Part shown: in pieces, positions 2,925 through 63,822 of the stretch | Numbering within the stretch: the first letter of the stretch is position 1 | Layout of the letters: each line of letters begins with the position of its first letter | Assembly (NCBI GenBank): GCA_026003395.1 | Contig: BPHE01000005.1 | Location: forward strand, 62,001-126,000 | From: Vicingaceae bacterium | GTDB lineage: Bacteria > Bacteroidota > Bacteroidia > Flavobacteriales_E > Vicingaceae | Length of the DNA: 64,000 nucleotides | Direction of reading: 5' to 3' | The notes under the pieces: model-generated | The model's database searches: none | What the model was told of the DNA's origin: nothing | What the model saw: only the letters and a program-made list of their open reading frames with translations | Translations under genes and position numbers: made by a program

Positions 2925-4236
2925 AAAGTTTTTGTTGAAGCAATTTTAATGCACTTTCTTTGTGTGATGATTTAACTACCACTGTGATATTATATTTGCT
3001 GCCCCCATAAGATATCATCCTGATGGGAATCTCTTTTAAGGCATCAAACACTTCGGCGGCATAACCTTTGGATTCTTCACTGTAATTTCCTACAATACAT
3101 ATTATAGACAAATCATGATCCACTTCAACAGTGCCCAATTTTTTGAGATCCGCAACGATCTCGTCCAAATATCTTTGATCATCGATAGTTAACGAAACTG
3201 CTACTTCTGATGTGGTAATGACATCGATGGGCGTTTTATACAGCTCAAAAATTTCAAAAACCTTTCTCAAAAATCCATATGCCAACAGCATCCTGCCCGA
3301 TTTGATTTTAATAGCCGTAATTCCATCCTTTGCGGCAACAGCTTTATGGCCGGAATGATCGCTTTGATTACTGATGATCGTTCCAAATGCCTCCGGGTCA
3401 AGCGTATTCTTTAACCTTACGGGTATGCCGGCATATTTGGCAGGTAACACACTGCTTGGATGTAAAATTTTAGCCCCAAAGTATGCCAACTCAGCGGCTT
3501 CATCGAAGGAAATATAATGTATCGGACGGGTATTTTTGACATACCTTGGATCGTTATTATGTATGCCGTCAATATCTGTCCAGATTTGCACTTCCGATGC
3601 TTGAACCACCGATCCGATGATAGATGCGGTGTAATCACTCCCTCCCCTTTTGAGGTTATCGATGTCCCCGTATGGATTGCGACAGATAAAACCTTGGGTA
3701 ACGTAGGTAGGTATGTCTTTGTGTAAATTTAATTTTTCATTTAATTTCTCACGGATATAAGTATAATCCGGTTCTCCATTTTCGTCAATTTTCATAAAAT
3801 CCAAAGCCGGTAATAATGCTGCCGGATGATTGATTTCATTTAAATAATGATAAAACATGAGAGTAGACATCAACTCTCCACCGGCTACGATAAATTTTTC
3901 TTCCTTTACAGTAATAGAAGGCCAATGAAAATATTGACGAATGGCGTCAAAAATTTCCGATAATGATTGCCATACTTGTTTTTTGGTCAAATCTGATGCA
4001 TAAAGTTGATTAATTTCATTTTGATATTTTTCACGTAATTGATTCCAAACATCAATGGCTCCTTCTGTGTTATTGGCTTTAAGATAATCTGCAATTTTGA
4101 CAAGAGAGTCAGTTGTGCCGGACATTGCCGAAAGCACAACAATTCTTGGTGAGGGATATTTTTGGACTAAATCAGCGACATGTTTCATCCTCGCGGCACT
4201 CCCAACGGAAGTGCCACCAAACTTCATGACTATCAT
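2890..4236 (-). CDS. lysC: Monofunctional aspartate kinase
   Basis: Phosphorylates aspartate, the committed step toward lysine, threonine and methionine. The start is placed at the ATG at 4236 (protein begins MIVMKFGGTSVG) because the N-terminal KFGGTSVG nucleotide-binding motif of aspartokinases normally sits within a few residues of Met1; an in-frame ATG at 4275 would add a 13-residue unrelated tail. From 4236 the product has 448 residues. The kinase domain is followed by FGAKILHPSSV and a C-terminal pair of ACT-like regulatory modules (from about residue 300, ending with the ISYGGSKYNITVVV strand), so feedback control by an amino acid is expected. There is no homoserine dehydrogenase fusion. 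It overlaps lysA downstream. Confidence 0.95.
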   Translation of the reverse strand: MIVMKFGGTSVGSAARMKHVADLVQKYPSPRIVVLSAMSGTTDSLVKIADYLKANNTEGAIDVWNQLREKYQNEINQLYASDLTKKQVWQSLSEIFDAIRQYFHWPSITVKEEKFIVAGGELMSTLMFYHYLNEINHPAALLPALDFMKIDENGEPDYTYIREKLNEKLNLHKDIPTYVTQGFICRNPYGDIDNLKRGGSDYTASIIGSVVQASEVQIWTDIDGIHNNDPRYVKNTRPIHYISFDEAAELAYFGAKILHPSSVLPAKYAGIPVRLKNTLDPEAFGTIISNQSDHSGHKAVAAKDGITAIKIKSGRMLLAYGFLRKVFEIFELYKTPIDVITTSEVAVSLTIDDQRYLDEIVADLKKLGTVEVDHDLSIICIVGNYSEESKGYAAEVFDALKEIPIRMISYGGSKYNITVVVKSSHKESALKLLQQKLFEKNELAGDLK

Positions 4237-4369: not shown

Positions 4370-5566
4370 CTATTGAATGTTGAGTTTTTTTCTAATTTCT
4401 TTTGGTATAGCATCTTTATGTAAAAAAATGTTTATGGTTTTATATCTGACATATGCTTCAGAAGCAAAGAAATATCCTTTCAAATCATTTGATTCGCCCC
4501 AAGAGTTTTTCACAAAAAAATATTCTTTACCGTTTTGATCGGTGGCCAATCCAACCACATGCATACCATGGTCATCGGTGGTTGTAAGATTGTCAAATGC
4601 TTTTTGCCTCATTTCTTGTGTTATCGTTTTTTCTTTGACAGGTTGTAAAAATGCATTTGATTTCTTTTCAGCTCCGGCATTATTAAATAAATGACTGTCG
4701 CGGCCTTTTACCTGTATGGTAGATTCATCTTCGGGAACAATGGCCAGTCCATTTTTAAATGAAAATCCTTTCTCCGAGACATCTGCCGCCCACGCAAAAG
4801 TATAACCATTAAGTATGGCATGTTTCATGGTCTGTATTAATTCATCCAGTGGCAAGTTATACGAAGTCCCCATCAACCAGTTATCGGGCACCTCTATAAT
4901 CATTTGTCGGTAAAAAGGATGATGGGTAAACGATGTCAAAGAAACATAATCGTCCATATTCAAACCCAATTCCTTTGCAAAAGATTTTGGTGTATATTGT
5001 TTTCCGTTATATGTAAAATCCACCGGATCTTTGCCAAGATAAGCATCCAAAACGGCTTCAATGGCCGGTCGCCAAGCATCACTAAGATGATGGTTAGGAT
5101 TTGATGCAAGTGCTTTTACCATGGCTTCAAGCACTTGATCGAGTTCTGAATGGATATGTTTCTCTGTTCCATAATTCAATCCGGAATATATTTCTTGAGG
5201 AACAATACCATATTTTTTTATTACATAGGGTATATCATGAAAGGCACCTCCGGGTCCAAAATTGAATTTTCCATACATTCTTAAAAATTGTTGGGCTTTG
5301 TCGGGATAGGCCTTTCGCACTACATACATTTCCGAAAGATTCACCGGCTTTTTTCCCAATCTTTTTACTTCAGATTCAAAAAAAGAAAGGGCAGAAAAGC
5401 TCCAACAGGTGCCTGTTTGACATTGATCTTCAACCGGCAAATGTTCAATCTTCTTTTTAAAAGTAAACAAATATTCGCTCCCTTTGGTGTTTCTTAAAGT
5501 ATCTTGTGATTGAATTGCATTGGCATATAAACTCAATGCTATCAGAATAAATCTGTAAATTTTCAT
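4370..5566 (-). CDS. Secreted C1B papain-like peptidase (bleomycin hydrolase / aminopeptidase C type)
   Basis: Cysteine peptidase of 398 residues. The active-site Cys is C54 in QTGTCWSF, preceded by the oxyanion Gln (DQCQTGT). The catalytic His is in DDHGMHVVGL and the Asn in VKNSWGES, so the Cys-His-Asn triad is complete. The spacing and the PGGAFHDIPYVIKKYGIVP segment match the bleomycin hydrolase/PepC branch rather than classical papain. A hydrophobic N-terminus of ~20 residues ending near IQSQ is a signal peptide, whereas characterised PepC enzymes are cytosolic; secreted versions are common in Bacteroidota. It stands alone between lysC and a divergently transcribed Smr gene. Function is probably peptide degradation outside the inner membrane. 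Confidence 0.9.
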   Translation of the reverse strand: MKIYRFILIALSLYANAIQSQDTLRNTKGSEYLFTFKKKIEHLPVEDQCQTGTCWSFSALSFFESEVKRLGKKPVNLSEMYVVRKAYPDKAQQFLRMYGKFNFGPGGAFHDIPYVIKKYGIVPQEIYSGLNYGTEKHIHSELDQVLEAMVKALASNPNHHLSDAWRPAIEAVLDAYLGKDPVDFTYNGKQYTPKSFAKELGLNMDDYVSLTSFTHHPFYRQMIIEVPDNWLMGTSYNLPLDELIQTMKHAILNGYTFAWAADVSEKGFSFKNGLAIVPEDESTIQVKGRDSHLFNNAGAEKKSNAFLQPVKEKTITQEMRQKAFDNLTTTDDHGMHVVGLATDQNGKEYFFVKNSWGESNDLKGYFFASEAYVRYKTINIFLHKDAIPKEIRKKLNIQ

Positions 5567-5799
5567 AATATTAATTTTTCAAGCCCGGGCAAATTTGAAA
5601 AAATCTATGTCAAAAAACAATTTAATTCATATAAAATTTCATTCAATATTACTTTTAACAAAATAATTTTAAAAATCAAATTGAAATTCAAATAAATACT
5701 TACAACAGAAATATCATTCAATCAAGATGAATAAGAATTGATATAGTTGGCATTTCAGAGAAGTTAAATTTTTAGCATGACTTCAAAATAATTTTAATT

Positions 5800-5807
5800 T
5801 ATTTTTG
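5800..5807 (+). promoter_or_regulatory. Bacteroidota -7 box upstream of Smr gene
   Basis: The octamer TATTTTTG matches TAnnTTTG and lies 13 bases before the ATG at 5821, which would give a leader of only about 7 bases. No TTG was found at the -33 spacing, so this is a half-site prediction. The rest of the 5567-5820 divergent spacer is AT-rich with no other clear signal. Confidence 0.4.
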
Positions 5808-5820
5808 AGATATTTGAACT

Positions 5821-6396
5821 ATGAAAAAAACGCACAATTTTCAAATAGGTCAACATGTTAAAGTTATTGATGAAGATTGCTCCGGCGAAATTGTCGATAT
5901 TCAAAAGGATTGCATATACATCATTTGCGATCGTACAGGTATGACGCTGCATTTCCACCCCGGCAAGTTGATTGCTAAAACAAATGATGAAGAAAAAATG
6001 TATCATCGCTATTATCATCAAAATATAGAAAATAAAGCCTCCAAAGAAAAAGTCCGCAAACCTAAAAAAGAAAAGTCGCCTTACCGGATCATTAATTTAA
6101 ACAAGAAGGGCGACAAAGCTATTGAAATCGACCTGCATTTTGCCAATATGCCTCATAAGTATGTCAGAACAAAGCACGAAATATTGTTGCATCAATTGGA
6201 AAAAGCACGAGAAGCAATTGAGTATGCCGGGTCGCACCACATTCGTTATGTAATATTAATCCATGGCATTGGAAAAGGCATATTAAAACAAGAAATTATC
6301 CACTTACTCAAAGGAATGCAGAATATCGAATACAATGACGCACCTTATGAACGTTATGGAAAAGGCGCTTTAATGGTGAAAATTTATGGAAGTTGA
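5821..6396 (+). CDS. Smr-domain protein (DUF2027-like N-terminus)
   Basis: 191-residue protein. Residues 1-60 form a small beta-rich module (FQIGQHVKVIDEDCSGEIVDI) like the N-terminal part of Bacteroidota DUF2027 proteins. It is followed by a basic linker (KVRKPKKEKSPYR) and a C-terminal Smr domain with the diagnostic EIDLHF and LIHGIGKGIL motifs. Smr domains, first known from MutS2, act as nicking endonucleases or RNA-binding modules. This protein lacks the MutS ATPase part, so a nucleic-acid role is inferred only from the domain. Family members in this phylum are usually longer; this one appears compact but complete. It is followed by a decayed gene on the other strand. Confidence 0.85.
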   Translation: MKKTHNFQIGQHVKVIDEDCSGEIVDIQKDCIYIICDRTGMTLHFHPGKLIAKTNDEEKMYHRYYHQNIENKASKEKVRKPKKEKSPYRIINLNKKGDKAIEIDLHFANMPHKYVRTKHEILLHQLEKAREAIEYAGSHHIRYVILIHGIGKGILKQEIIHLLKGMQNIEYNDAPYERYGKGALMVKIYGS

Positions 6397-6433
6397 GACA
6401 TTTCAAGAAATTTTTTCTAAAATTAAATCAACT

Positions 6434-6778
6434 TCAATAAAAATACAAAGAATAATATGCCTCAATATTATCCAAATACGTTCCGTCAAAACCGGCATCC
6501 AAAATTTTTTTCATATAAGAATCGTCGTTTCCAAAAATGATATTTTGCCATTCTTTTTTCCAGAATTTTACCCAAATCTCGTCATCCTATCCTTCAAATG
6601 TTTTTTTAAGCCAACAAGGATGGTGCAATATCCATTTATTTTTCCTGTAATAACGCCATTTTTCAGCCGCACCGATATTAATGTAGGAAATCACCAATCG
6701 CTTACCTCCATTGGCTTTGGTTTTAAGCGATATTATTTCTTGTTTGGTAAAAGCATCCCTTTGGTTAAAGAAAAAATA
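6434..6778 (-). pseudogene. Remnant of GH114-like (endo-polygalactosaminidase / TM1410 family) glycosidase
   Basis: Reading 6778 to 6434 on the minus strand gives a recognisable C-terminal piece: LVISYINIGAAEKWRYY, then WVKFWKKEWQ, then ILDAGFDGTYLDNIEAY, ending at a TGA at 6434-6436. This strand order and the DGTYLD segment match the GH114/TM1410 barrel. The expected DDEIW tyrosine context reads G-stop-D-D-E-I-W: a TAG at 6587-6589 stands where a Tyr codon (TAT/TAC) would fit. A TAA at 6779-6781 closes the frame upstream and the N-terminal half of the barrel is absent. The gene is therefore truncated and carries a nonsense mutation. Family identification is from remembered motifs, not a search. 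Confidence 0.75.
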
Positions 6779-6805
6779 TTATTCAAACAATAAAAATTAA
6801 AAAAG

Positions 6806-7241
6806 ATGAAAGTTTTAATTCTTTGTACAGGAAATTCTTGCCGGAGCCAAATGGCAGAAGGCATATTAAAAGCATTAAACCCTAATGTTGAGGTTTACTC
6901 GGCAGGAACAAAACCGGCAGATTATGTGCACCCCAAAGCTATTGAAGTAATGAAAGAGTTGGGCGTGGATATCTCGGGAAACAAACCCAAGTCGGTAGAG
7001 CAGTTTTTAGACCAAAAGTTTGACTATGTAATTACCGTTTGCGACGGTGCAAAAGAAAACTGTCCCGTGTTTCTTGGGCGATGTCAAACACCGTGAACAT
7101 ATTGGCTTTGAAGATCCTGCCGAAGCAACAGGAACCGAGGAAGAAATTACAAACAAATTCCGCCAGGTACGTGATGAAATTCTTCGTGAATTTTTCAAAT
7201 TCAACAACCTAAAACAAAAAATGTTTAAGCCTGAAATCTAA
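6806..7241 (+). pseudogene. arsC: Arsenate reductase (thioredoxin-coupled type), single-base frameshift
   Basis: Low-molecular-weight phosphatase-fold arsenate reductase. The frame from ATG 6806 carries the P-loop CTGNSCRSQMAEG (CX5R), SAGTKPADYVHPKA, and the redox cysteines in VCDGAKENCPVF. It then leaves frame in TTTCTTGGG near 7070-7078 and stops at 7096. The +1 frame continues exactly where family members do (FLGDVKHREHIGFEDPAEA) to a stop at 7241. Removing one base from the run near 7075 gives 145 codons (144 residues), the normal family size. It is either a recent pseudogene or a sequencing error. No ars regulator or efflux gene is adjacent; LMW-PTP-type arsenate reductases and phosphatases are hard to separate, but the cysteine pair favours ArsC. 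Confidence 0.85.
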
Positions 7242-7280
7242 TCTATAAAACAATTATTCTAAGTAGCCACAAATATAAAT

Positions 7281-7310
7281 TTGATTTTTCAAGAAAAATA
7301 TTTAATTTTG
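7281..7310 (+). promoter_or_regulatory. Consensus Bacteroidota promoter for rnpB
   Basis: TTG at 7281-7283 and TAATTTTG at 7303-7310 (TAnnTTTG) are separated by 19 bases, the preferred -33/-7 arrangement of the primary sigma factor in this phylum. The predicted start point about 6 bases further on coincides with the first paired base of RNase P RNA (7316). This is the best promoter match in the window. Confidence 0.85.
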
Positions 7311-7315
7311 CGGCA

Positions 7316-7669
7316 AAGCAAGTCAATTCTGTCGCCCCGAAATTCCTATCGGGGAGGAAAGTCCGGGCAGCAGAAAGCAACGGACCCCGGGCAACCGGGG
7401 GCATCACGGACGAAAGTCCGCGATGACAGACAGTGCCACAGAAAATATACCGTCCGCCATCGGCGGATAAGGGTGAAAAGGCGAGGTAAGAGCTCACCGC
7501 TCCGAGGGTAACCGAGGAGGCAAGGCAAACCTTCCGTGCTGAAAGGCCATGTATATCTCACACGGGCTCGCTTGGTCCAATGTGAGAGGGGTAGGCCGAT
7601 GGACATGCAGGCAACTGCATGTGCAGATAAATGACAGAATAATACAGAACCCGGCTTATTGACTTGCTT
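7316..7669 (+). ncRNA. rnpB: RNase P RNA (class A)
   Basis: Catalytic RNA of ribonuclease P, which matures tRNA 5' ends. The outer helix P1 is a perfect 11-bp pairing of AAGCAAGTCAA (7316-7326) with TTGACTTGCTT (7659-7669). Universally conserved segments are present in order: GAGGAAAGTCCGGGC near 7353-7367, the ACAGAAAATATACCG block near 7437, GGTAAGAGCTCACCG near 7485-7499, and AGATAAATGACAGA then ACAGAACCCGGCTTA near 7625-7658, completing P4. Total length about 354 nt, normal for bacterial type A. The closing helix is followed by a T-run (7668-7675), so P1 probably also serves as an intrinsic terminator. The strand follows from the conserved order and from the promoter immediately upstream. 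Confidence 0.97.
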
Positions 7670-7698
7670 TTTTTATTGTTTAACTTAAATAAAACTAT

Positions 7699-9396
7699 AT
7701 GATTAAATTTCAAGAACTTCCTTTAAAAAAGGAAATTATTCAGGCGGTAGAAAAATTGGGATTTACTTCCCCTACCCCAATCCAGGAAAAAGCCATACCT
7801 TATCTATTAACAACAGAAGGAGATTTTGTAGGCTTGGCGCAAACAGGAACAGGAAAAACCGCTGCTTTTGGGTTACCTTTGTTGCATCATATCGATCCAA
7901 ATAATAGAAATATCCAAGGATTGATATTGTGTCCCACAAGGGAATTGTGCATTCAAATCGCAAATGAATTGGAAAAATATGCTTATTTTCTTAAGGATGT
8001 TTCCATTGTACCGGTATATGGTGGCGTAAATATTCAATCGCAAATAAAATCCTTGAGAAGCAAACCCCAAATCGTTGTAGCCACTCCGGGACGTTTCATT
8101 GACCTAATCAATCGAAAAGCAATTTCAATCCAAAACGTCAAATACCTTATCCTTGATGAAGCCGATGAAATGCTCAACATGGGTTTTAAGGAAGATATAG
8201 ATTACATCTTGGACCATACACCTGATAACAAAAAAGTTTGGCTGTTTAGTGCTACTATGCCTCCGGAAGTAGAACGAATTGCCGGGCAATATATGCACGA
8301 TCCGGAAAAGGTGGTAATTGGCAAAAAAAATTCATCGGCCGAAAATCTCGACCATTTTTTCGCACACGTTCATGCCAAGGACATGTATGCAGCCCTCACA
8401 CGATTTTTGGATTATTACCAGCAACCCTACGCCATCGTATTTTGCAGGACGAAAAGAGATACACAGGAAATAGCCGATAAACTCATCAAAGACGGATTCC
8501 CTGCCGATGCATTGCATGGTGACCTTTCCCAGGCACAACGGGATTTTGTTATGAAAAGATTCCGCAATAAAGTGGTGAAAGTTTTGGTTGCCACCGATGT
8601 GGCTGCCAGAGGTATCGATATTAAAGATGTTTCGCATGTATTTCATATGGGATTACCCGAAGATATCGAAAACTATACTCACCGAAGCGGACGTACGGCC
8701 CGGGCAGGACAATCAGGCATGTCCATTGCCATTATTCATTCAAGGGATTATTCCAAATTACGAAGAATTGAAAAAATGACGGGTAAAAAAATCAATCTGA
8801 TAAAGGTTCCCGGTGAACAGGAAATTTTACAAGCAGGTATCGACAGATTTATACAACAAATCATTCAAAACCCCGGGCTTCCCTCAAAATATACCGATAT
8901 CTTACAACAATGCATCGAAAAATTAAAAGATTTTTCAAAAGAAGACATAATTGCCGCTGTGGTTGCTAATCATTTGGAAACGATGATCAAAGACAAAAAA
9001 ATCGATCAGGATTTAAATGTTAACGTCAGTCGTAGCAACAAAAGCAACACCGACCATAGAATTCATTCCGGCAATTTTGGAAGGTCCGGTACAGATTTAT
9101 TTTTAAATATCGGAAGCAAAGACATAGACAATAAATCTAAGTTTTTACATTTTGTTTGTACCGAAAGTGGTTGTAAAGGCACATCCATCGGACGAATAAA
9201 CCTTAAAGACACATATTCGTTTATCACGGTTGACAATAAAGATACAGCCATGCAAATCATTCGTGGATTACAAGGAAAAACTATTAATAACAGAACCATA
9301 AAAGTGGAAATTTCCCAACCAAAGTCATCAGCAAGTAACAACCCTACTTCATCAGGAACTAAAAGAAAAAGATTAAAATCAAAAGAAAGGTTTTAA
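7699..9396 (+). CDS. DEAD-box RNA helicase with DbpA-like RNA-binding C-terminus
   Basis: 565-residue ATP-dependent RNA helicase. Motifs occur in order: Q motif (FTSPTPIQEKAIP), I (AQTGTGKT, about residue 53), Ia (PTRELCIQ), II (DEADEML, about 153), III (SATMP), and in the second RecA domain ARGIDI (V) and HRSGRTARAG (VI). Residues about 370-440 form a linker region. Residues about 465-550 resemble the DbpA/CsdA C-terminal RRM-like domain (LFLNIGSKDIDNKS to INNRTIKVEIS), and the tail is basic (KRKRLKSKERF). Such enzymes act in ribosome assembly or mRNA turnover, often in the cold. It follows rnpB by 30 bases. Confidence 0.93.
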   Translation: MIKFQELPLKKEIIQAVEKLGFTSPTPIQEKAIPYLLTTEGDFVGLAQTGTGKTAAFGLPLLHHIDPNNRNIQGLILCPTRELCIQIANELEKYAYFLKDVSIVPVYGGVNIQSQIKSLRSKPQIVVATPGRFIDLINRKAISIQNVKYLILDEADEMLNMGFKEDIDYILDHTPDNKKVWLFSATMPPEVERIAGQYMHDPEKVVIGKKNSSAENLDHFFAHVHAKDMYAALTRFLDYYQQPYAIVFCRTKRDTQEIADKLIKDGFPADALHGDLSQAQRDFVMKRFRNKVVKVLVATDVAARGIDIKDVSHVFHMGLPEDIENYTHRSGRTARAGQSGMSIAIIHSRDYSKLRRIEKMTGKKINLIKVPGEQEILQAGIDRFIQQIIQNPGLPSKYTDILQQCIEKLKDFSKEDIIAAVVANHLETMIKDKKIDQDLNVNVSRSNKSNTDHRIHSGNFGRSGTDLFLNIGSKDIDNKSKFLHFVCTESGCKGTSIGRINLKDTYSFITVDNKDTAMQIIRGLQGKTINNRTIKVEISQPKSSASNNPTSSGTKRKRLKSKERF

Positions 9397-9407
9397 TCAT
9401 TTTCAAT

Positions 9408-9415
9408 TATTTTTG
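9408..9415 (+). promoter_or_regulatory. Bacteroidota -7 box upstream of phoH-like operon
   Basis: TATTTTTG matches TAnnTTTG, 21 bases before the proposed TTG start at 9436. No TTG at the -33 spacing. It would serve the tightly packed plus-strand run that begins with the PhoH-like gene. Confidence 0.4.
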
Positions 9416-9435
9416 TGCAATAAATTAATAGCAAC

Positions 9436-10380
9436 TTGGTAGAAAAGCAATTTACAATAAGCGAAGTTGATCCGGTTGACTTGTTAGGCATCAACAATCG
9501 GAAACTGGACATCATTCAGTCATATTTTCCCAAAATCAAGATAATTTCTCGTGGCGACATACTAAAAGTCAAAGGCAGCAAATCCGATTTGGAAGAATTT
9601 GAGAAGCGTCTGCAATTGCTAATACATCACATACAAACCTATAAATCGCTTCCCGAAAAAGCCATAGAGGATTTAATGATGCTCGACGAAAATGAAACCC
9701 GACAATATTTCAAAACCGACGAAAGCATATTGTTATACGGCACAGGCGGCAACATTATAAAACCCAAGACACCCAATCAAAAACGATTGGTTGAATCCAT
9801 CAAAACCAATGATATTGTTTTTGCCCTGGGACCTGCCGGTACCGGAAAAACCTATACTGCAGTTGCATTAGCAGTGAAGGCATTTAAAGACAAAATGATC
9901 AAAAGAATAATCTTAACCCGCCCCGCTGTTGAAGCAGGTGAAAATTTGGGTTTTTTGCCAGGCGACTTAAAAGAAAAACTTGATCCTTATTTGCAACCCT
10001 TGTATGATGCTTTACATGATATGCTCCCTGCAGGTAAACTAAATGAGTTGATTTACAATGGTTTTATTCAAATTGCACCATTGGCGTTCATGCGTGGACG
10101 TACATTAGACAATGCTTTTGTGATTCTCGACGAAGCCCAAAATGCCACAGAATCTCAATTTAAAATGTTTTTAACCCGTATGGGACCTTCTGCCAAATTT
10201 ATTATCACAGGTGATATGTCGCAAATTGACTTACCCAAACATCAAAAAAGTGGTTTAATACAATCTGTTAAAATACTCCAAGGAATAGAAGGCATTGACT
10301 TTATTTATTTTGACGAGAAAGATGTTATTCGTCATCCTTTAGTTAAAAAAATCATCAAAGCATATGAAGAACAAACCTGA
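9436..10380 (+). CDS. PhoH-like ATPase
   Basis: Cytoplasmic P-loop ATPase of 314 residues. An N-terminal KH-like segment (residues ~1-75, with [23 protein letters not shown]) precedes the PhoH ATPase domain. Walker A is GPAGTGKT (about residue 134) and the Walker B/DEAQ box is VILDEAQN (about 233), followed by [23 protein letters not shown], characteristic of the PhoH/YbeZ family. YbeZ-type proteins are associated with RNA metabolism, together with the endonuclease YbeY; no ybeY lies next to it here. The start is a TTG codon; no ATG in frame preserves the KH-like region. The end overlaps purC by 17 bases, so translation is probably coupled. Confidence 0.92.
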
Positions 10381-46979: not shown

Positions 46980-49711
<2,732 letters not shown>

Positions 49712-49715
<4 letters not shown>

Positions 49716-50317: not shown

Positions 50318-50688
50318 TGCGTCAAAATTAACAAATATACATTCATATCAATCAATGCAAAGAAAGATTGAGAGGCAAGAAACTACCCTTCAAACGATAT
50401 CACTAAGCTGCATATACATCCTGCAACTTAGAAACAATAAACAATGGATATTCAGTAAAGACCTTATCTATCGCTCAAAAATAGAAATTTGAATAACAGT
50501 GAATATAGTACGTCCTTTAAATTCTTCAAAAGGAAGAGATATCTATTGTGGTAATTCAGGAGAAATATCTAAAATTTATAATTACAATCTTGTATCTCTA
50601 TTTCAACACTATAGACATAAAATTTATTTAGTTAATCCTTAAAAAGCCACTCCAAATTTTTAATGCAAAGAATACCGGAAATTTTTTC

Positions 50689-50986
50689 CTCAAAATACTC
50701 TAATAATTTTGTGAAAAATAAACAAAAAAGAAAAGTTTTTCTTTAACCTTTCCATAAAATTCTTCAAATTCCACGCTGCTGCCGATAAAATGGCATTTAT
50801 CTGTGCTTTCCCTTTTCCGAAAAAATAATTGATTTTCATTTTAAACTGCCGTTTCAGATGGGAAATGACGGCTTCAATGGCTGCTCTCCGCCGGAATTTT
50901 CTTCTTTGCTTTTATTGCCGGCAGACAGTTTTATGCGCCAAACTCCCGCCTAAATTAAAATGCAGTTGTTGTGTGAATCGCACTTT
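50689..50986 (-). pseudogene. IS5-like transposase C-terminal remnant
   Basis: Minus-strand translation gives LGGSLAHKTVCRQ, a stop (TAA near 50911-50913), then RRKFRRRAAIEAVISHLKRQ and INAILSAAAWNLKNFM, ending at TGA 50689-50691. RRR-AIE-VI-HLK followed by IN-xLxAAAWNLK is the C-terminal signature of IS5/IS1182-group DDE transposases. The catalytic N-terminal half and any terminal inverted repeats are gone, and an internal stop is present, so this element is dead. It marks past insertion next to the adhesin array. Confidence 0.75.
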
Positions 50987-51196
50987 TCACTTCAAAATGA
51001 TTTCGCTATGCTCTATAAAAATTCACTTAAAACTTCTTGATACTTGTAGGAGCCAATAGAAAGTAGGGTAATAACGCATAATTTTCATAAGTTTGGTGGA
51101 ATATTCCAATATATCTTGTTTCCCCTTATGTTTCATAATATTAGAAATTTTTGGCGTTTTTTCCGCCATGAAGAAACAAAAAAAGAAAACATTGCG

Positions 51197-51204
51197 TATA
51201 TTTG
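51197..51204 (+). promoter_or_regulatory. Candidate -7 box before the left structured repeat
   Basis: TATATTTG matches TAnnTTTG exactly. It would start a transcript at about 51211, at the first base of the repeat R1, so the repeat would be the 5' part of an RNA reaching the first adhesin gene 250 bases on. No TTG at -33 spacing. Confidence 0.35.
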
Positions 51205-51212
51205 TTTAATAA

Positions 51213-51348
51213 CAAACACGCAAAAAACAAGATTGACGGTGCAAAAAATAAAGTTTGTCGGCTGACAAACCAACCAGCAAAGCAAGAGTTTGGCAAGCCC
51301 TACCGCACGAGCGACCGCTTCGCTTACCAAATACATGCTTTCTTACCG
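51213..51348. repeat. Structured flanking repeat R1 (left)
   Basis: 136 bases from CAAACACGCAAAAAACA to TCTTACC. Contains the perfect hairpin GTTTGTC-GGCT-GACAAAC and a second, larger stem GTTTGGCAAGC ... GCTTACCAAAT (imperfect in this copy). The second copy R2 is at 57598-57732. The two bracket the three adhesin genes. Confidence 0.8.
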
Positions 51349-51424
51349 ACACGCCGACAGATAAGTAACATTCTATTTGATAATATTTTTCTCCCCAACA
51401 TAAATGTTAAATTGTAATAATACT

Positions 51425-53215
51425 TTCAAATAATTTTGTAATTTTTCACTAAAAAATCAAAAAACATAAAAACTAAATTTACATATTTCATAAAACTGTT
51501 CGCAAAAGCTACTCTTGCGGTTATGGGCCTTGTTGCTGCTATTGACTCAACATACGCCCAAACCCTTTTCCATCAGGATATTTTTTATGGGGGAGTTACG
51601 GCTGGTGGATTTTCTACTGGTGGTGGTTTTGGTTCTGGCACACTAAATTTATACATTGAACCGGGCAGCACCATCAGAAAAGCGTATTTATTTTCGTATC
51701 GAATTGGTTATCCTCCTTCTGTTCCTATTACAGTAAACAACGTTCCTTATATTTTCGATACACTGAATTGTATTATGTCTGTTTCGCATAAAACTATCTA
51801 TGCAAGTCCGACCAAACTTTATTACTATGATATAACAAATGATTTAAACAGTTCTATAACATCTACCTTTAATATTACTATTCCCGATCAATTTGATCTG
51901 CCAATAAATTGGGGATGGTGGACGGCATTTATTTACATTGAATACGAAAATCTTGCACTATCCAGAGTGGCTTCTACTCTATGGATTAACGACAAGGATT
52001 ACTTCGGCAATGAATCTTATACCATGACGGGAATGAATCCTGTAAATAATTCTAATCCCATTGGACTATCATTAATGTTAGATAGGGCTATTGATTACAC
52101 GTATGACGGCAGCATTGTAACAATAAACAGCAATATATTAGGTGTTGTCGGAGGCTCTGATTCTGTAAATTATTTATGGGGATGGGGAGGGGCAAAAGGG
52201 CATTTTTATTATCAAAACAATACATTATTTGGACTAGATGATGATACTGCTAACGCTACAATGAACGGATCAGATGCATTGGCAGACATATCATCTTATA
52301 TTACGAACGGAGCTAATGGATATTCATTAAATCTAGTTCATATTAACCCTAACCCGAGTATGCTGCCCCAAATTGGAATTTGCTTTTCATCAACGCCTAC
52401 ACCACCCCCTGCGATACCTTTTCAACAAGTATTTCGGCAGATACGGTAATTTGCAAAGGAGACAGCGTACAACTTTTTGCAAGTGGTGGCACCAATTATT
52501 ACTGGTTGCCTACTACGGGTTTAAGCAATCCAAACATTGCCAATCCAATGGCTTCGCCTGACAGTACAACCCTTTATATCGTTCGCATTGAAAACACTCC
52601 CGGTTGTTCACGCACCGAAAAAGTTTTGGTAAAAGTAAATGAACCTCCAAAAATAAATTCAAATATTACTCCGTCTGTTTGCGGAAATGATGACGGAAAA
52701 ATTACCATTAATGCAACAGGAAGTAATCCTTTCCAATATTCTATTGGCAACGGTTTTCAAACCGTAATACTTTTTTAAATCTTGCATCGGGAAATTATAC
52801 CATTACTGTTTTAGACAGTAATGGTTGTTCTTCTGATACTACCGTTTTTGTTCCTGAGATAAATCCTGTAAATGCTCTTTTTACAGCCAATCCGCAAACC
52901 GGTACCGAACCGCTTTTTGTTGACTTCAATAATCAATCAAGTAATGCAAATAATTTTATCTGGCTTGTTGATAATTCCATTTTTTCAAATGCTTCCAACA
53001 CATCTTATACTTTTGATAGTTCAGGTGTTTATACGGTAACACTCATAGCTTACAACAACCTACCCCAATGTGCCGACACGTTTTCTTTGCAAATTATCGT
53101 TTATGATACTTTAATGGTTCAAATACCCAATGTTTTTACTCCCAACAATGACGGAGTGAATGATGTATTTTCCATAAAAGTAGAAGGAGCAAAAGAAATA
53201 AACGCAGATATTTTT
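51425..53215 (+). repeat. Near-identical direct repeat, copy A (with 55358-57151)
   Basis: From TTCAAATAATTTTGTAA upstream of copy 1 to the codons for EGAKEI, the sequence recurs at 55358-57151 with an offset of 3933-3936 and only about a dozen scattered differences by eye. The repeat includes ~40 bases of upstream DNA and breaks off inside the C-terminal domain, where copy 1 switches to an unrelated tail. Confidence 0.85.
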
Positions 53216-53407
53216 AACCGTTGGGGAGAAATTGTGTACAGGTACACCACCACCATACAGGAAAGCCCCGCAACGATTTACCTGTGGGATGGCCACACCC
53301 CTGCCGGGGTGCAGGTTTCTGACGGAGTGTATTTTTATCTCATACAACTGACAGACATGAAAGACGAAATAAAAACAGTAAACGGAACGATAAATGTTTT
53401 CAGGTGA
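51466..53407 (+). pseudogene. T9SS type-B surface adhesin, array copy 1 (two frameshifts)
   Basis: Extracellular protein: signal peptide, beta-rich N-terminal domain of ~280 residues (QTLFHQDIFYGGVTAGGFS...; GWWTAFIYIEYENL; WINDKDYFGNESYTMTGMNP), an Ig/PKD-like module, a SprB-like repeat (TPSVCGNDDGKITINATG), a PKD domain (FDSSGVYTVTLIAYN), and the gliding-motility C-terminal domain (IPNVFTPNNDGVNDVF ... NRWGEIVY). One-base losses near 52355 and 52760, relative to copy 3, break the frame. Adding two bases gives exactly 648 codons. The coding frame extends upstream of ATG 51523 without any ATG to ATA at 51466, needed for a proper signal peptide. The tail (EINADIFNRWGEIVYRYTTT) differs from copies 2 and 3. 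Confidence 0.85.
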
Positions 53408-55340
53408 AAAGCTTTGTTTTATATATCACCCTGCTTATAAGTTGCCTTTTTTTAAAAAGCAATTTTCTGCATGCACAAAATCTTTTTCATCAGGATATTT
53501 TTTATGGGGGAGTTACCGCGGGGGGCTTCTCCACCGGACAAGGCTCTGGTTCGGGTACGTTAAATCTGTATATCGAGCCGGGCAGCACCATCAGAAATGC
53601 GTATTTGTTTTCGTATAGAATTGGTTATCCGCCAACAGTTCCAATAACAGTTAACAGTGTACCGTATTTATTTGATACACTGAATTGTATTATGACAGTT
53701 TCACATATAAATCTATGCTGTTGCCGACCTAAAACTGTATTATTATGATATAACAAATGATTTAAACAGTTCCATAACATCAACATTTAATATTACTATT
53801 CCCAATCAATTTGGTCTGCCAATAAATTGGGGATGGTGGACAGCTTTATTATACATTGAATACGAAAATCCTACTTTACCCAAAGTGGCTTCTTCTGTGT
53901 GGATTAATGATAAAGATTGATTACTTGGCAATGAATCCTATACCATGACTGGAATGAATCCGATAAATAACGCTAATCCCTGTTGGATTATCTTTAATGA
54001 TAGATAGGGCTAGATAATACAATGAAGTGACAATGTAACTTTAAACAGTAATATTCTTGGAAATATTGCGTATTCCGATGCTGTGAATTTACTTTGGAAT
54101 GTAGTGGAGCAAAAGGGCATTTTTATTATCAAAACAATACCCTATTTGGCTTAGATGATGATACAGCCAATACTACTATGAACGGATTCTGATGCGATTG
54201 GCAGATATTCTCGTATACTTGACTAATGGAGCTACTGGTTATAACTTAATTTTGGAAATAATTTTTACCTCCTAATCCAATCGCTACTTATGACCTAAAT
54301 TTAATTTTCTTTTTCTCAACGCCTACACCACACCCTGCGATACCTTTTCAACAAGCATTATCGCTGATACCGTAATTTGCAAAGGAGACAGCATACAACT
54401 TTTTGCAAGTGGCGGAACAAATTATTACTGGTTGCCTGCTGACGGGCTTAAGCAATCCAAACATTGCCAATCCAATGGCTTCGCCTGATAGTACAACGCT
54501 TTACATTGTACGCATTGAAAATACACCCGGTTGTTCAAGAACAGAAAAAGTACTGGTAAAAGTAAATCCTTTGCCTAAAATAAATTCTATTAATATTACT
54601 CCTTCTGTTTGCGGTAATGATGACGGAAAAATTACAATAAATGCTTCAGGAAATAATCCTTTCCAATATTCTATTGGCAACGGTTTTCAAAGCAGTAATA
54701 CTTTTTTAAATCTTGCATCGGGAAATTACACCATTACCGTTTTAGACAACAATCGGTTGTTCTTCTCGATACCACCGTTTTTGTTCCTGAAATAAATCCT
54801 GTAAATGCTTTTTTTACGGCTAATCCACAAACAGGAACTGAACCGCTTTTTGTTGTTTTGAATAATCAATCAAGTAATGCCAATAACTTTGTTTGGCTTG
54901 TTGACAATACCATTTTTTCAAATGCTTTCAACACAACATATACTTTTGACAGTTCTGGTGTTTATACGGTAACATTAATTGCATATAACAACTTGCCCCA
55001 ATGTGCTGACACGTTTTCTTTGCAAATTATCGTTTATGATTCTTTAATGGTTCAAATACCCAATGTTTTTACTCCCAACAATGACGGAGTGAATGATGTA
55101 TTTTCCATAAAAGTAGAAGGAGCAAAAGAAATTTCTGTTTCTGTTTATAACCGTTGGGGAATTTTATTGACAGAATATAGTAATACAATAACTGTAAGCC
55201 CGGCCATCATTGACTTATGGGATGGTCGTACTACCTCAGGAGAAAAAGTTTCTGACGGTGTTTATTTTTATGTTATCAATGTAACCGACTTGCAAAACAA
55301 GCAATATCAATACAACGGAACTATTCACGTATTTAATTGA
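53404..55340 (+). pseudogene. T9SS type-B surface adhesin, array copy 2 (heavily frameshifted)
   Basis: Begins with a GTG overlapping the stop of copy 1 (AGGTGA). Signal peptide MKSFVLYITLLISCLFLKSN is unlike copies 1 and 3. The N-terminal domain (NLFHQDIFYGGVTAGGFSTGQGSG) is homologous but diverged, and indels near 53720, 53930, 53990, 54230 and 54435 destroy the frame. The SprB-like module is readable at 54403-54750, with another shift near 54757. The PKD and C-terminal domains are intact in a single frame from 54858 to 55340, and the last ~250 bases are identical to copy 3. The damage is densest in the N-terminal half. Confidence 0.8.
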
Positions 55341-55357
55341 CAGGAGAAAAAAACTTA

Positions 55358-57151
55358 TTCAAATAATTTTGTAATTTTTCACTAAAAAATCAAAAAACAT
55401 AAAAACTAAATTTACATATTTCATAAAACTGTTCGCAAAAGCTACTCTTGCGGTTATGGGCCTTGTTGCTGCTATTGGCTCAACATACGCCCAAACCCTT
55501 TTCCATCAGGATATTTTTTATGGGGGAGTTACGGCTGGTGGATTTTCTACTGGTGGTGGTTTTGGTTCTGGCACACTAAATTTATACATTGAACCGGGCA
55601 GCACCATCAGAAAAGCGTATTTATTTTCGTATCGAATTGGTTATCCTCCTTCTGTTCCTATTACAGTAAACAACGTTCCTTATATTTTCGATACACTGAA
55701 TTGTATTATGACTGTTTCGCATAAAACTATCTATGCAAGTCCGACCAAACTTTATTACTATGATATAACAAATGATTTAAACAGTTCTATAACATCTACC
55801 TTTAATATTACTATTCCCGATCAATTTGATCTGCCAATAAATTGGGGATGGTGGACGGCATTTATTTACATTGAATACGAAAATCTTTCACTATCCAGAG
55901 TGGCTTCTACTCTATGGATTAACGACAAGGATTACTTCGGCAATGAATCTTATACCATGACGGGAATGAATCCTGTAAATAATTCTAATCCCATTGGACT
56001 ATCATTAATGTTAGATAGGGCTATTGATTACACGTATGACGGCAGCATTGTAACAATAAACAGCAATATATTAGGTGTTGTCGGAGGCTCTGATTCTGTA
56101 AATTATTTATGGGGATGGGGAGGGGCAAAAGGGCATTTTTATTATCAAAACAATACATTATTTGGACTAGATGATGATACTGCTAACGCTACAATGAACG
56201 GATCAGATGCATTGGCAGACATATCATCTTATATTGCGAACGGAGCTAATGGATATTCATTAAATATAGTTCATAGTAACCCTAACCCGAGTAGTGGTGC
56301 CCCAAATTGGAATTTGCTTTTCATCAACGCCTACACCACCCCTTGCGATACCTTTTCAACAAGTATTTCGGCAGATACGGTAATTTGCAAAGGAGACAGC
56401 GTACAACTTTTTGCAAGTGGTGGCACCAATTATTACTGGTTGCCTACTACGGGTTTAAGCAATCCAAACATTGCCAATCCAATGGCTTCGCCGGACAGTA
56501 CAACCCTTTATATCGTTCGTATTGAAAACACTCCCGGTTGTTCACGCACCGAAAAAGTTTTGGTAAAAGTAAATGAACCTCCAAAAATAAATTCTAAATA
56601 TTACTCCGTCTGTTTGCGGAAATGATGACGGAAAAATTACCATTAATGCAACAGGAAGTAATCCTTTCCAATATTCTATTGGCAACGGTTTTCAAAGCGG
56701 TAATACTTTTTTAAATCTTGCATCGGGAAATTATACCATTACTGTTTTAGACAGTAATGGTTGTTCTTCTGATACTACCGTTTTTGTTCCTGAGATAAAT
56801 CCTGTAAATGCTCTTTTTACAGCCAATCCGCAAACCGGTACCGAACCGCTTTTTGTTGACTTCAATAATCAATCAAGTAATGCAAATAATTTTATCTGGC
56901 TTGTTGATAATTCCATTTTTTCAAATGCTTCCGACACATCTTATACTTTTGATAGTTCAGGTGTTTATACGGTAACACTCATAGCTTATAACAACCTACC
57001 CCAATGTGCCGACACGTTTTCTTTGCAAATTATCGTTTATGATACTTTAATGGTTCAAATACCCAATGTTTTTACTCCCAACAACGACGGAGTGAATGAT
57101 GTATTTTCCATAAAAGTAGAAGGAGCAAAAGAAATTTCTGTTTCTGTTTAT
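55358..57151 (+). repeat. Near-identical direct repeat, copy B (with 51425-53215)
   Basis: Counterpart of copy A. It starts immediately after the 3' flank of copy 2 (GACAGGAGAAAAAAACTTATT), and that flank is itself repeated after copy 3 as GACAGGAGGAAGAAACTTATT. The junction therefore looks like the product of unequal recombination between tandem copies. Confidence 0.85.
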
Positions 57152-57343
57152 AACCGTTGGGGAATTTTATTGACAGAATATAGTAATACAATAACTGTAA
57201 GCCCGGCCATCATTGACTTATGGGATGGTCGTACTACCTCAGGAGAAAAAGTTTCTGACGGTGTTTATTTTTATGTTATCAATGTAACCGACTTGCAAAA
57301 CAAGCAATATCAATACAACGGAACTATTCACGTATTTAATTGA
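55399..57343 (+). pseudogene. T9SS type-B surface adhesin, array copy 3 (one frameshift)
   Basis: Same architecture as copy 1, the least damaged member. A single frame runs from the start to PPKINS; one extra base near 56598 (AAATTCTAAATATT against AAATTCAAATATT in copy 1) shifts to stop at 56625. The frame resumes through the SprB-like, PKD and C-terminal domains to 57343. Removing the base gives 648 codons, 647 residues. N-terminal 1.8 kb near-identical to copy 1, C-terminal ~250 bases identical to copy 2. The same non-ATG start question applies (ATA at 55399, first ATG at 55456). T9SS type-B tails direct export and surface anchoring or attachment to the PorV-type machinery; a cell-surface adhesin is inferred. 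Confidence 0.85.
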
Positions 57344-58330
57344 CAGGAGGAAGAAACTTATTACCAACCCTGGTCATGCACATTTGCAAAGCCACACAAT
57401 CCCCATACTCATTCCAAAGCTTTGCAAAAGAGCATTCCCTCCGACACACAGAGAGAATTGCACGATTTGCTAATAGCGTGTATGTGACAATAGCGGCTGA
57501 AGTGGCAAATCGAAGGCTGTGCTTCTTATCAACATTTGTGTTTGGTTGACAGTGAAGTGCTCCGAAATCCCCACAACGGTAAGCGGCAAAACGTTAGCAA
57601 ACACGCAAAAAACATGACTGACGGTGCAAAAAATAAAGTTTGTCGGCTGACAAACCAACCAGCAAAGCAAGAGTTTGGCAAGCCCCAACACAAGAGCGAC
57701 CACTTCGCTTGCCAAACACATGCTTTCTTACCCGCTCGCTTCGAAGACTAAACAAATTTTAAATTCTTTGATAATCACTATTGTCCAGTAAAAATCAAAA
57801 ATATTAATTTTTAACGAAAGATTTGATTTTATTGAGTTTTTTTAATTTAAAATGTATAGCCCCCATTTATTCTATGTTTTGCCAAATATTAAATGAAATT
57901 GACTGTTAGGTGGTTGGTTTTCTTTTATCCAATCTTTCTCAGGATTCACAAGAAACTTTATTAAATGTATGTAGTTGAACAATTATATTCTGCAGAAACT
58001 TATAAGGTTTAAAGTAGTGGTTAGTATTTGTTTTATATATTTTTATTCCTATCCTAAACATTTCCTCATTTTCAAATTACTTCACATTGTATAACTAATA
58101 AATAATATGCGACAAATTTTTTTTGATATTGCTCAGGTTAAGCCCTTATCTATTCCTATTAAACATCTTGTAGGGCTTTATTAAGCACTTATAAATCTTC
58201 ATTTATTCTACATCTATCATACATTCATTCATTGCCACTCAAAGTATTCCATATTAAAAAACAGAATAAATGATATTTAAAGCTAAAGTAACTCTTGCAG
58301 CTGTCTGCTGAAATGAATTTAACTCTCTTG
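57344..58330. other. Non-coding stretch after the adhesin array
   Basis: Carries the right structured repeat R2 and, before it, GC-richer sequence (57360-57597: TTTGCAAAGCCACACAATCC, GTGAAGTGCTCCGAAATCC, AACGTTAGC). The remaining 57733-58330 is AT-rich with no supported gene, RNA or repeat. Confidence 0.65.
57598..57732. repeat. Structured flanking repeat R2 (right)
   Basis: 135 bases matching R1, same orientation. It has the same hairpin GTTTGTC-GGCT-GACAAAC and here a perfect 11-bp outer stem GTTTGGCAAGC ... GCTTGCCAAAC. Preceded by AACGTTAGC. Confidence 0.8.
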
Positions 58331-59485
58331 TCAATTAAACGACATTATCGGATAGTGACTAAAATACACTTTTATTTTACCATTAAAAAACTCGTATGTA
58401 TTTTGAGGTTTGAGTTTTAAAAATTCGCTTGATTTTTTATCAGCGGTCAGCAACCATGCGTCCCAATCTGAGAACTCTTTTTTCAAATGAAATCCCAAGA
58501 GTTTATACAAATCTTTTGTGCTAACCGATTTTAACCTTACTTCGTAAGGGAGATTAGAAACAATAACTCCGTTGTTTGAAGTTTTTTTGATTTGTTCAAA
58601 AGAAGTATTTTTCAAAGAAATCCAGGAAATCATGCCGGATTTTATGATATTTCTTTTTGCCCCTTCTATTGCTTTTGGGTTTATGTCACATCCGGTAATT
58701 TTTATTTTAGGTTGTATAACTTCTTCTTCCGCTTCACGTATGACTTGCTTCATTATTCTTTCGTCATAATTGTTCCATTGCATAAAAGCAAAATTGCTAC
58801 GTGAAATATTTGGCGATCGTCGTGAAGCAATCATGGCTGCTTCGATCAGAAATGTACCGGATCCGCAAAACAAATCAACAAAATCACATTCCCCTCTCCA
58901 ACCGGTTTTGAGAATTAATGCTGCGGCCAAATCTTCTTTGATAGGGGCTTGACCTCCAAAGACACGATATTTTCTTCTGTGTAATAATTCTCCTGTTGTA
59001 TCTATGCCGATGAATACTTTATTTTTACGTATTCCCAAATATAAAATCAATTTAGGATTATCTTTATCAATATCGGGACGTTTTCCGTTTTTTTCCCTGA
59101 AATAATCACATATCGCATCTTTCATCAATAATGCCGGGTATAAAGTATGTTTGTATAATGAAGAATTGACCACCGAATCGATTTTGAATGTATGGTGCAC
59201 TTTCATCACTTGATCCCAAGAAAAAGATTTGACAAGCTCGTAAAGTTGCTTGGGTTGATCAATGGTTGCTTCTATTAAAGGGTAAATTATTTTTTGTGCT
59301 GTTCGCAGAGAGATATGCAAACGGTAAAGAGTTTTACGGTCACAAGAAAAAAAAACTGCTCTGTTGCCGGTTTTGATATCACGTGCCCCTAATTGATGTA
59401 ATTCTTCTGCCAATATTTCTTCAATGCCCTGTTGGCATTTTGCCATAAAGCGAGCATCCTCAAAATCATCCAGCAATTCTATCAT
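58331..59485 (-). CDS. THUMP-domain class I SAM-dependent rRNA methyltransferase (RlmL/YpsC type)
   Basis: 384 residues. N-terminal ferredoxin-like/THUMP region (EEILAEELHQLGARDIKTGNRAVFFSC; LYRLHISLRTAQKIIY), then the UPF0020 methyltransferase domain: RKYRVFGGQAPIKEDLAAALI, DLFCGSGTFLIEAAMIA (SAM motif I), ITGCDINPKAIEGAKRN, and the catalytic NLPYE in GVIVSNLPYEVRL (N-P-P-Y class variant). E. coli RlmL methylates 23S rRNA G2445; YpsC of Bacillus is the closer architecture. It starts in an ATGA overlap with the PD40 gene, so it is the second gene of that operon. Confidence 0.92.
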   Translation of the reverse strand: MIELLDDFEDARFMAKCQQGIEEILAEELHQLGARDIKTGNRAVFFSCDRKTLYRLHISLRTAQKIIYPLIEATIDQPKQLYELVKSFSWDQVMKVHHTFKIDSVVNSSLYKHTLYPALLMKDAICDYFREKNGKRPDIDKDNPKLILYLGIRKNKVFIGIDTTGELLHRRKYRVFGGQAPIKEDLAAALILKTGWRGECDFVDLFCGSGTFLIEAAMIASRRSPNISRSNFAFMQWNNYDERIMKQVIREAEEEVIQPKIKITGCDINPKAIEGAKRNIIKSGMISWISLKNTSFEQIKKTSNNGVIVSNLPYEVRLKSVSTKDLYKLLGFHLKKEFSDWDAWLLTADKKSSEFLKLKPQNTYEFFNGKIKVYFSHYPIMSFN

Positions 59486-62480: not shown

Positions 62481-63822
62481 TTAATTGATTCTTCTCCAAA
62501 AAATAACAGCAACATTTGTGGGTCTTGTTTCATTGGCAGCATTTCCATTGTTGTTACCAATCGTCACATTTCCGGTATGATTATGATCCGGGATTGTATG
62601 AGTATGGTTACCATCAGTATTTATGGCATGATTATGATTCAATTCGTTGTTTAATCTGCCTAAAAAATTTCCACCTGTGATATTATCTATTCCATGGACA
62701 AGAGGTAGAAGCCGTTACATAACTACCTACGCTTATGGCATCGCTTGCATTGTTATCGTCATATGGCACCCATTTGGGATTTCCACAACCCGAACCAATG
62801 TCATTGTATCCTCCCGTAAAACCACCGTGATTATGCGCACCTGCCACACCTGTGACTAAACCTGTTGCATTGTTGATTGTCAATGTGGCACTATGTTGAT
62901 GTGTTTCCGTGGCAAAGTTTTGGACTATACCTGTCAAAGGCGCATTTGAAGCAACATTGGACAAACCTCCTCTGGCCCTGATAAACTCACCATTGGCAAT
63001 ATCGGTGGCAATCCATTGTGTACAAGGATACAAAGTATTGGGATCAGCGGCATTATACCATTGAATGTAAGTAGAGCCAATCGGTGGAGTATTGATATTC
63101 ATCCAACAAGTGCCATTGAAAAACTCAACTGTTCCGGTAGTTGTATTATACCTGATTGTACCTGCCGGCGCACCTGCAGGTTGTTGTGCAGTTGTACCTG
63201 ATGGTAAGGCCAGTCCCGAGGTTGAATTAATCTGCAGCGCCACAACCGGATTCGTCGTATTGATCCCGATATTGGTTCCGCTTTGATAAATCACAGAATT
63301 ACAAACCGTGTCCGGAGTTGTAAACATCGTGATGTAACCGGGCTGGGCATTGGCACAATATCCACCCGGCCCTGTTGGTCCCGTTATACCGGTAGGTCCT
63401 GTAACGCCCGTAGGTCCTTGGGCTCCGGTTGGCCCCGTTGGTCCTGTTATGCCCGTGGCGCCCGTAGGACCGGTGGGTCCTTGCAATCCTTGTGGTCCTG
63501 TCGGTCCCTGCGGCCCGGATATCTGACATAATGACAACCAGGAACTGCTGCTTTGCTGATAATAATAGAAACAACCCACTGTAATATCATATACCAGCAA
63601 TCCGTCTGCCGGATTGGCTATAGCCATCCTCTGTGCTGAAGTAAGACGTGGAACCAAAATTCCTTTATCTTTTCCCGACGGATCCAAGTGCAATATAGCC
63701 GAAGGATCGGGATTCGACGTGCCTATTCCTACATTGTTGGTTTGTGAAAATACAAAATTAATCGAACAAGTAAAAAAACTTAAAAACAAAATTTTTTCAT
63801 TAAAACCTTTAATTTTTTTCAT
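62481..63822 (-). pseudogene. Collagen-like, tail-fibre-like secreted protein, single-base frameshift
   Basis: Signal peptide ([17 protein letters not shown]), then [19 protein letters not shown], an opening shared by phage tail-fibre and Bacteroidota surface proteins. Residues ~103-150 are a Gly-x-y collagen-like run of about 17 triplets ([19 protein letters not shown]..., mostly GPT/GIT). A second copy of the NIGINTTNP-type motif follows, and the C-terminal part is His-rich ([22 protein letters not shown]). The first frame stops at 62683. The +1 frame continues [15 protein letters not shown] then HTHTIPDHNHTGNVTIG and RPTNVAVIFWRRIN to TAA 62481-62483, typical of collar-like proteins. One extra base near 62700 explains it; corrected length 447 codons. 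Confidence 0.83.

Follow-up and report, generated by a model that had tools for sequence, protein, structure and literature searches.

Mosaic tandem genes with CHU_C sorting tails and their differing module combinations in two assemblies of one bacterial species

Results and Discussion

Layout of the array

The window, that is the whole 64,000-nt stretch analysed here, corresponds to positions 62001-126000 of contig C5 from a genome of 2.54 Mb in 33 contigs. It carries three tandem gene copies on the plus strand. Copy W1 (51425-53407) has leader a, passenger p1, an Ig_7/SprB/PKD module (m1) and a CHU_C tail of type T1 (53087-53407; PF13585, 2.4e-19), and its start candidates are an ATA at 51466 and an ATG at 51523. 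Copy W2 (53404-55340) has leader b, a noisy passenger (53598-54308), module m2 and tail T2, and its GTG start overlaps the W1 stop codon. Copy W3 (55358-57343) again has leader a, with start candidates ATA at 55399 and ATG at 55456, then p1 and m1, followed by tail T2. The T2 segment common to copies 2 and 3, recognised by alignment and PF13585, lies at 55008-55346 in W2 and 57011-57349 in W3.

The array is flanked by two plus-strand copies of an array-specific direct repeat of about 145 bp, D7 (left, 51210-51354; right, 57595-57739), which occurs only these two times in the whole genome. To the left of it lies a decayed IS-like remnant (50624-51209, no strand assigned), which by alignment is common to positions 1185-1783 of the comparator contig L022, where it is upstream of the gene KA (both described below). 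Transposase copies related to this remnant were also detected. The RlmL/UPF0020 rRNA methyltransferase gene at 58331-59485 (minus strand) serves as the right-hand synteny anchor and corresponds to L022 11352-12506. The neighbours of the array are this RlmL methyltransferase, TPR-PD40, PAP2 and PMT_2 genes, and no PorP/SprF-like partner gene adjoins it; such a neighbour of type-B cargo is common but not obligatory. The PMT_2 glycosyltransferase gene (48115-49715, minus strand) seems to be divided between two frames that overlap near 48500-48530, which may be another assembly frameshift.

Protein architecture

The predicted layout, about 630 aa in length, comprises a Sec leader, an all-beta passenger of about 290 aa, an Ig_7/SprB/PKD stalk and a CHU_C type-B tail. 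CHU_C (PF13585) scored 64-71 bits against a cut-off of 27 and exceeded it in all tails, and the T9SS type B model TIGR04131 gave 38.5-44.8 against a cut-off of 35 in the intact relatives tested. Matches to Ig_7, SprB and PKD fell below cut-off and are consistent with a stalk. The preliminary description had named three tandem type-B genes; the tails bear this out, but none of the three copies is an open reading frame. The T9SS machinery is represented in the genome by PorU (NF033707, 1268.9 bits against a cut-off of 420), and about 49 CHU_C matches in the genome are over the cut-off.

The passenger matched no Pfam family. Its structural model is all-beta (pLDDT 77, pTM 0.83), and fold searches with this model gave no confident structural match, with no PDB hit below E 0.001 and a best VIA Z of 6.4. 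Among 395 genomes sampled from the class, 20 contain the passenger, which outside this species occurs mostly as scattered copies with open frames. Close homologs elsewhere are mostly single in their loci, and one relative (contig C46 of genome G027) has a tandem pair. A phage origin of the passenger was considered and rejected, as neither a viral relative nor a PHROG match was found. Judged by their domain types, the proteins may function in adhesion to surfaces, polymers or other cells.

Mosaic identity among the three copies

Two-state segmentation of pairwise alignments placed sharp segment edges. W1 51425-53199 and W3 55358-57135 are 99.0% identical over 1778 columns, including about 95 bp before the first ATG, and beyond 53199/57135 their tails are only 49% identical. 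W2 55008-55346 and W3 57011-57349 are 99.4% identical over 339 columns, which reach a few bases beyond the stop, while identity is 75% on the 5' side of this common tail (edges 55008/57011) and at most 75% elsewhere among window pairs. These edges uphold what had been read from the sequence by inspection: that copies 1 and 3 are nearly identical over about 1.8 kb including upstream DNA and end in different C-termini, that copies 2 and 3 have divergent N-termini and the same last 250 or so bases plus post-stop flank, and that copy 1 has a distinct tail (T1, against T2 in the other two). Between W1 and W3 the longest concordant run is 85 polymorphic sites long; 10,000 permutations of the sites gave no run above 51. 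Part of the W1-W3 identity could reflect read mis-assignment. Concordant runs in array pairs are far beyond chance.

Intact copies on a related contig

A search with the passenger among species-representative genomes gave a 97% match on L022 (BPGX01000018.1, contig_812 of bin KatS3mg027). Downstream of the array L022 and the window are 99.72% identical, gap-free, whereas the remainder of the KatS3mg027 bin is only about 63-69% identical to the window, and we therefore read L022 as a mis-binned contig of the window's species. We take the KatS3mg genomes to come from the study of Katase hot spring sediment. In that study PacBio HiFi reads with an N50 of 10.5 kb were assembled with metaFlye (PMC9671151). 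The bacterium is probably from a hot spring.

L022 carries four array genes as intact open frames of 628-641 aa: KA (2101-3990), KB (4554-6440), KC (6437-8362) and KD (8478-10364). A fifth relative, KE, is located at 391-2331 of L023 (BPGX01000019.1), another small contig in that bin, and was not found in a search of the window genome. L023 is probably also foreign to the KatS3mg027 bin.

The intact copies are themselves mosaic. KC and KD have 518 identical passenger columns between flanks of about 63% and 84% identity, and their concordant run, measured among the five intact copies, extends over 221 polymorphic sites, where 10,000 permutations reached 36 at most. KB and KD are 98.6% identical in the stalk, 74% in the passenger and 50% in the tail; KA, KC and KD have a tail in common (98-99.7%) on differing bodies. 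Synonymous divergence shifts abruptly along one and the same gene pair: dS between KC and KD is 1.40 in the N part of the passenger and 0.17 in its middle, and dS between KA and KC goes from 1.35 down to 0.05 in the tail. Because these comparisons rest on L022, the conclusion that the genes are mosaic needs no perfect window copies.

Differences between the two arrays

Two arrangements were compared, both from metagenome-type assemblies. W1 is 98.4% identical throughout to KB, its syntenic counterpart. W3, compared with the syntenic KD, is 98.1%, 73.1% and 98.5% identical in three successive parts, with breakpoints at 55539 and 56324; at 55539-56323 it has the passenger of KB and W1 (p1) in place of that of KD. 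Its stalk agrees with KD at several sites at which W1 does not, so W3 is not a plain copy of W1. W2 and the syntenic KC match at both ends but not in the passenger, a stretch of W2 too noisy for close reading. The window lacks the KA unit. By alignment, the left D7 there is a recombinant, with the pre-KA sequence of L022 on its left side and the pre-KB sequence on its right. Such a junction is what unequal crossover between direct repeats would leave behind; read in the opposite direction, it would mean a gain in L022. A fixed arrangement in relatives, named beforehand as evidence against shuffling, is not what we found.

The copies are mosaics of a few leader, passenger, stalk and tail types, and both the combinations and the copy number differ between the two assemblies of one species.

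A second array in the same genome

At 5030-18800 of contig C17 the genome has three further tandem CHU_C genes (1037, 1037 and 1082 aa) in open frames, each followed by a gene of about 330 aa that is PorP/SprF where tested. Units 1 and 2 are nearly identical. In unit 3 the N-terminal half is unrelated (about 36% identity, the level of alignment noise), and the C-terminal half and the partner gene are 93-100% identical to the others in most blocks. With this swapped passenger, passenger replacement on a conserved sorting module recurs in this genome. On contig C1, two 625-aa CHU_C genes with identical scores (2504-3439 and 7771-8706) lie about 5.3 kb apart and are probably a recent duplication.

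Probable recombination and mode of selection

We consider it likely that these are full-length paralogs of a surface adhesin, which gene conversion and unequal crossover have diversified while purifying selection acted on them. The shuffling agent would be homologous recombination. Gene conversion between neighbours could draw on the homology of shared stalks, tails and short conserved stretches, and unequal crossover at the D7 repeats could add or remove units. The set of exposed, full-length passengers would thereby keep changing on stalks and export tags that are conserved, with purifying selection preserving function. In diverged pairs, passenger, stalk and tail all have dN/dS values of about 0.02-0.25, which speaks against strong diversifying selection on the paralogs and for maintained function. 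Segmental conversion or unequal recombination swapping passenger and tail modules, as proposed in the preliminary description, is well supported by the intact L022 mosaics, by the unlike passengers at syntenic positions (W3/KD and W2/KC) and by the gain or loss of a unit at the flanking direct repeat.

The mechanism would be the same, with only tempo and selection differing, if the array were an old duplication in slow concerted evolution, in which rare neutral conversion homogenises tails and stalks with no selected shuffling. We hold this to be possible, though short of even chances. Purifying selection acts in every module, conversion between tandem repeats is generic and no dedicated machinery was seen, all as such a history would have it; but strains with 99.7% identity in the flank have different passengers, which makes the exchange recent relative to strain divergence.

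Broken frames in the window copies

All three window copies are frameshifted. W1 has frameshifts near 52360 and 52763, W3 a single one caused by a surplus T at 56595, and W2 about 15 indel events from 53718 to 54767. The middle of W2 has 36 private indel columns, insertions as well as deletions, and KA, KB, KC and KD have none there; by eye, its insertions at 54196 and 54767 resemble two alleles placed side by side. Since L022 holds four intact copies without such indels, errors of assembly have probably blurred the copies in the window. The frameshifts are most likely consensus errors from merged strains or paralogs, and the W2 passenger should not be read at single-base level.

A further step would be to regard the window mosaic itself, especially W2 and the W1-W3 identity, as a chimeric consensus of several strains' arrays. 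Besides the broken frames and the W2 indels, two circumstances speak for trouble of this kind: contig_812 was placed in the wrong bin, and a collagen-like (GPTGPTG) gene at 62683-63822 (minus strand) is shortened, by a 1-nt change relative to contig_812, where the frame runs on, exactly at a strain-polymorphic spot. We nevertheless think it rather unlikely that the mosaic arose in this way, which would leave unexplained the mosaics among the four intact L022 frames, obtained with HiFi reads whose N50 of 10.5 kb exceeds the array length (PMC9671151), and the intact C17 array. The KD-like stalk likewise means that W3 was not simply built from W1 reads.

That the window copies are real, decaying pseudogenes of a once-active array would also account for three frameshifted copies out of three, and we regard it as unlikely. 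Substitutions in W2 are still third-position-biased (57/105 in the middle, and 33/44 in the 5' part against KA), its indels are dense relative to its private substitutions, unlike ordinary decay, and the close relative L022 has intact copies.

Start codons and the question of a cassette system

KE begins with ATG AAA ACT AAA TTT. In KA, KB, KD, W1 and W3 an ATA stands at the position of the KE ATG within identical upstream context and an otherwise conserved leader, and the next ATG comes 57 bases on; a start there would give a signal peptide without a charged start. By eye the signal peptide looks complete in leader b (KC and W2) and in KE, while leader a is complete only from the ATA. KC, like W2, has a GTG start overlapping the stop of the preceding gene. 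Copies with leader a would thus either use AUA as start or be weakly expressed; a search of the literature on AUA starts in bacteria turned up nothing useful.

The ATA/ATG difference, along with passengers that differ between strains at fixed positions, is what could be said for an antigenic-variation cassette system, to which the array had been likened, in a form where one locus is expressed and the donors are silent. We think such a system very improbable here. Every copy has full length and a leader, stalk and tail of its own (four of them open frames in L022), KC and W2 combine a GTG start with an intact signal-like leader, KE is absent from the window genome, there is no evident expression site, and selection is purifying. 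A repeat-tract search of the genes found no phase-variation tract in the leader and only 15-bp TTTCTG runs in the tail region. No immune host is known, and none of the pressures of an immune system would be expected on a bacterium whose related contig comes from hot-spring sediment (PMC9671151). A narrower version, in which leader-a copies with AUA starts are silent or dim donors whose conversion into an AUG copy such as KE switches the displayed passenger, is a long shot. If it were true, a free-living thermal bacterium would have a cassette display built on a type-B T9SS scaffold, and the pressure behind it would come from phages, grazers or substrates and not from immunity.

Other switching devices can be set aside: the window array has no inverted repeats of at least 30 nt for an invertase (those of L022 have imperfect arms only, the best being parts of two D7 copies), and D7 with just two genomic occurrences is no genome-wide REP-like hot spot. 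Whole-segment exchange instead of adenine-directed point variation argues against a diversity-generating retroelement.

Comparison with known systems

In pilE/pilS and vlsE, segmental gene conversion operates between one expressed gene and truncated silent donors. The array resembles these in the segmental conversion of parts of a surface protein and differs in that its copies are full length. Like the Opa family of Neisseria, it has several loci of full length, and recombination shuffles their variable regions; Opa loci, however, lie scattered, undergo phase variation through repeats in the coding sequence and are subject to immune selection (PMC13183285), whereas the array is tandem, under purifying selection and without a repeat tract that we could find. 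The Ig-like stalk domains are related to those of the Aureispira grappling-hook protein GhpA (PDB 9flp and others; E 1.7e-98 over 19 stretches, and also by fold search), but GhpA has about 5900 aa, and the proteins described here are short with a different N-terminal passenger.

The nearest parallel in T9SS-exported surface adhesins of Bacteroidota is provided by Kgp, RgpA and HagA of Porphyromonas gingivalis, whose cleaved-adhesin domains are diversified by rearrangement and allelic exchange, with gene conversion proposed (PMC5266723). There, repeated domains within very large genes at separate loci are exchanged from strain to strain in a pathogen (PMC5266723); here, full-length CHU_C (type-B) genes stand in tandem and sorting tails are exchanged too. 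The claim that such shuffling was undescribed is therefore too strong for T9SS adhesins in general (PMC5266723). For the CHU_C type, a literature search mainly of openly accessible papers turned up no account of arrays being shuffled by conversion.

The array also carries a warning that metagenome assemblies can scramble loci of this kind. The intact long-read copies show that passengers, stalks and sorting tails can be exchanged among tandem T9SS proteins with CHU_C tails, and that such proteins differ between strains of one species. Modular display by the T9SS thereby becomes testable in an environmental, non-pathogen lineage.
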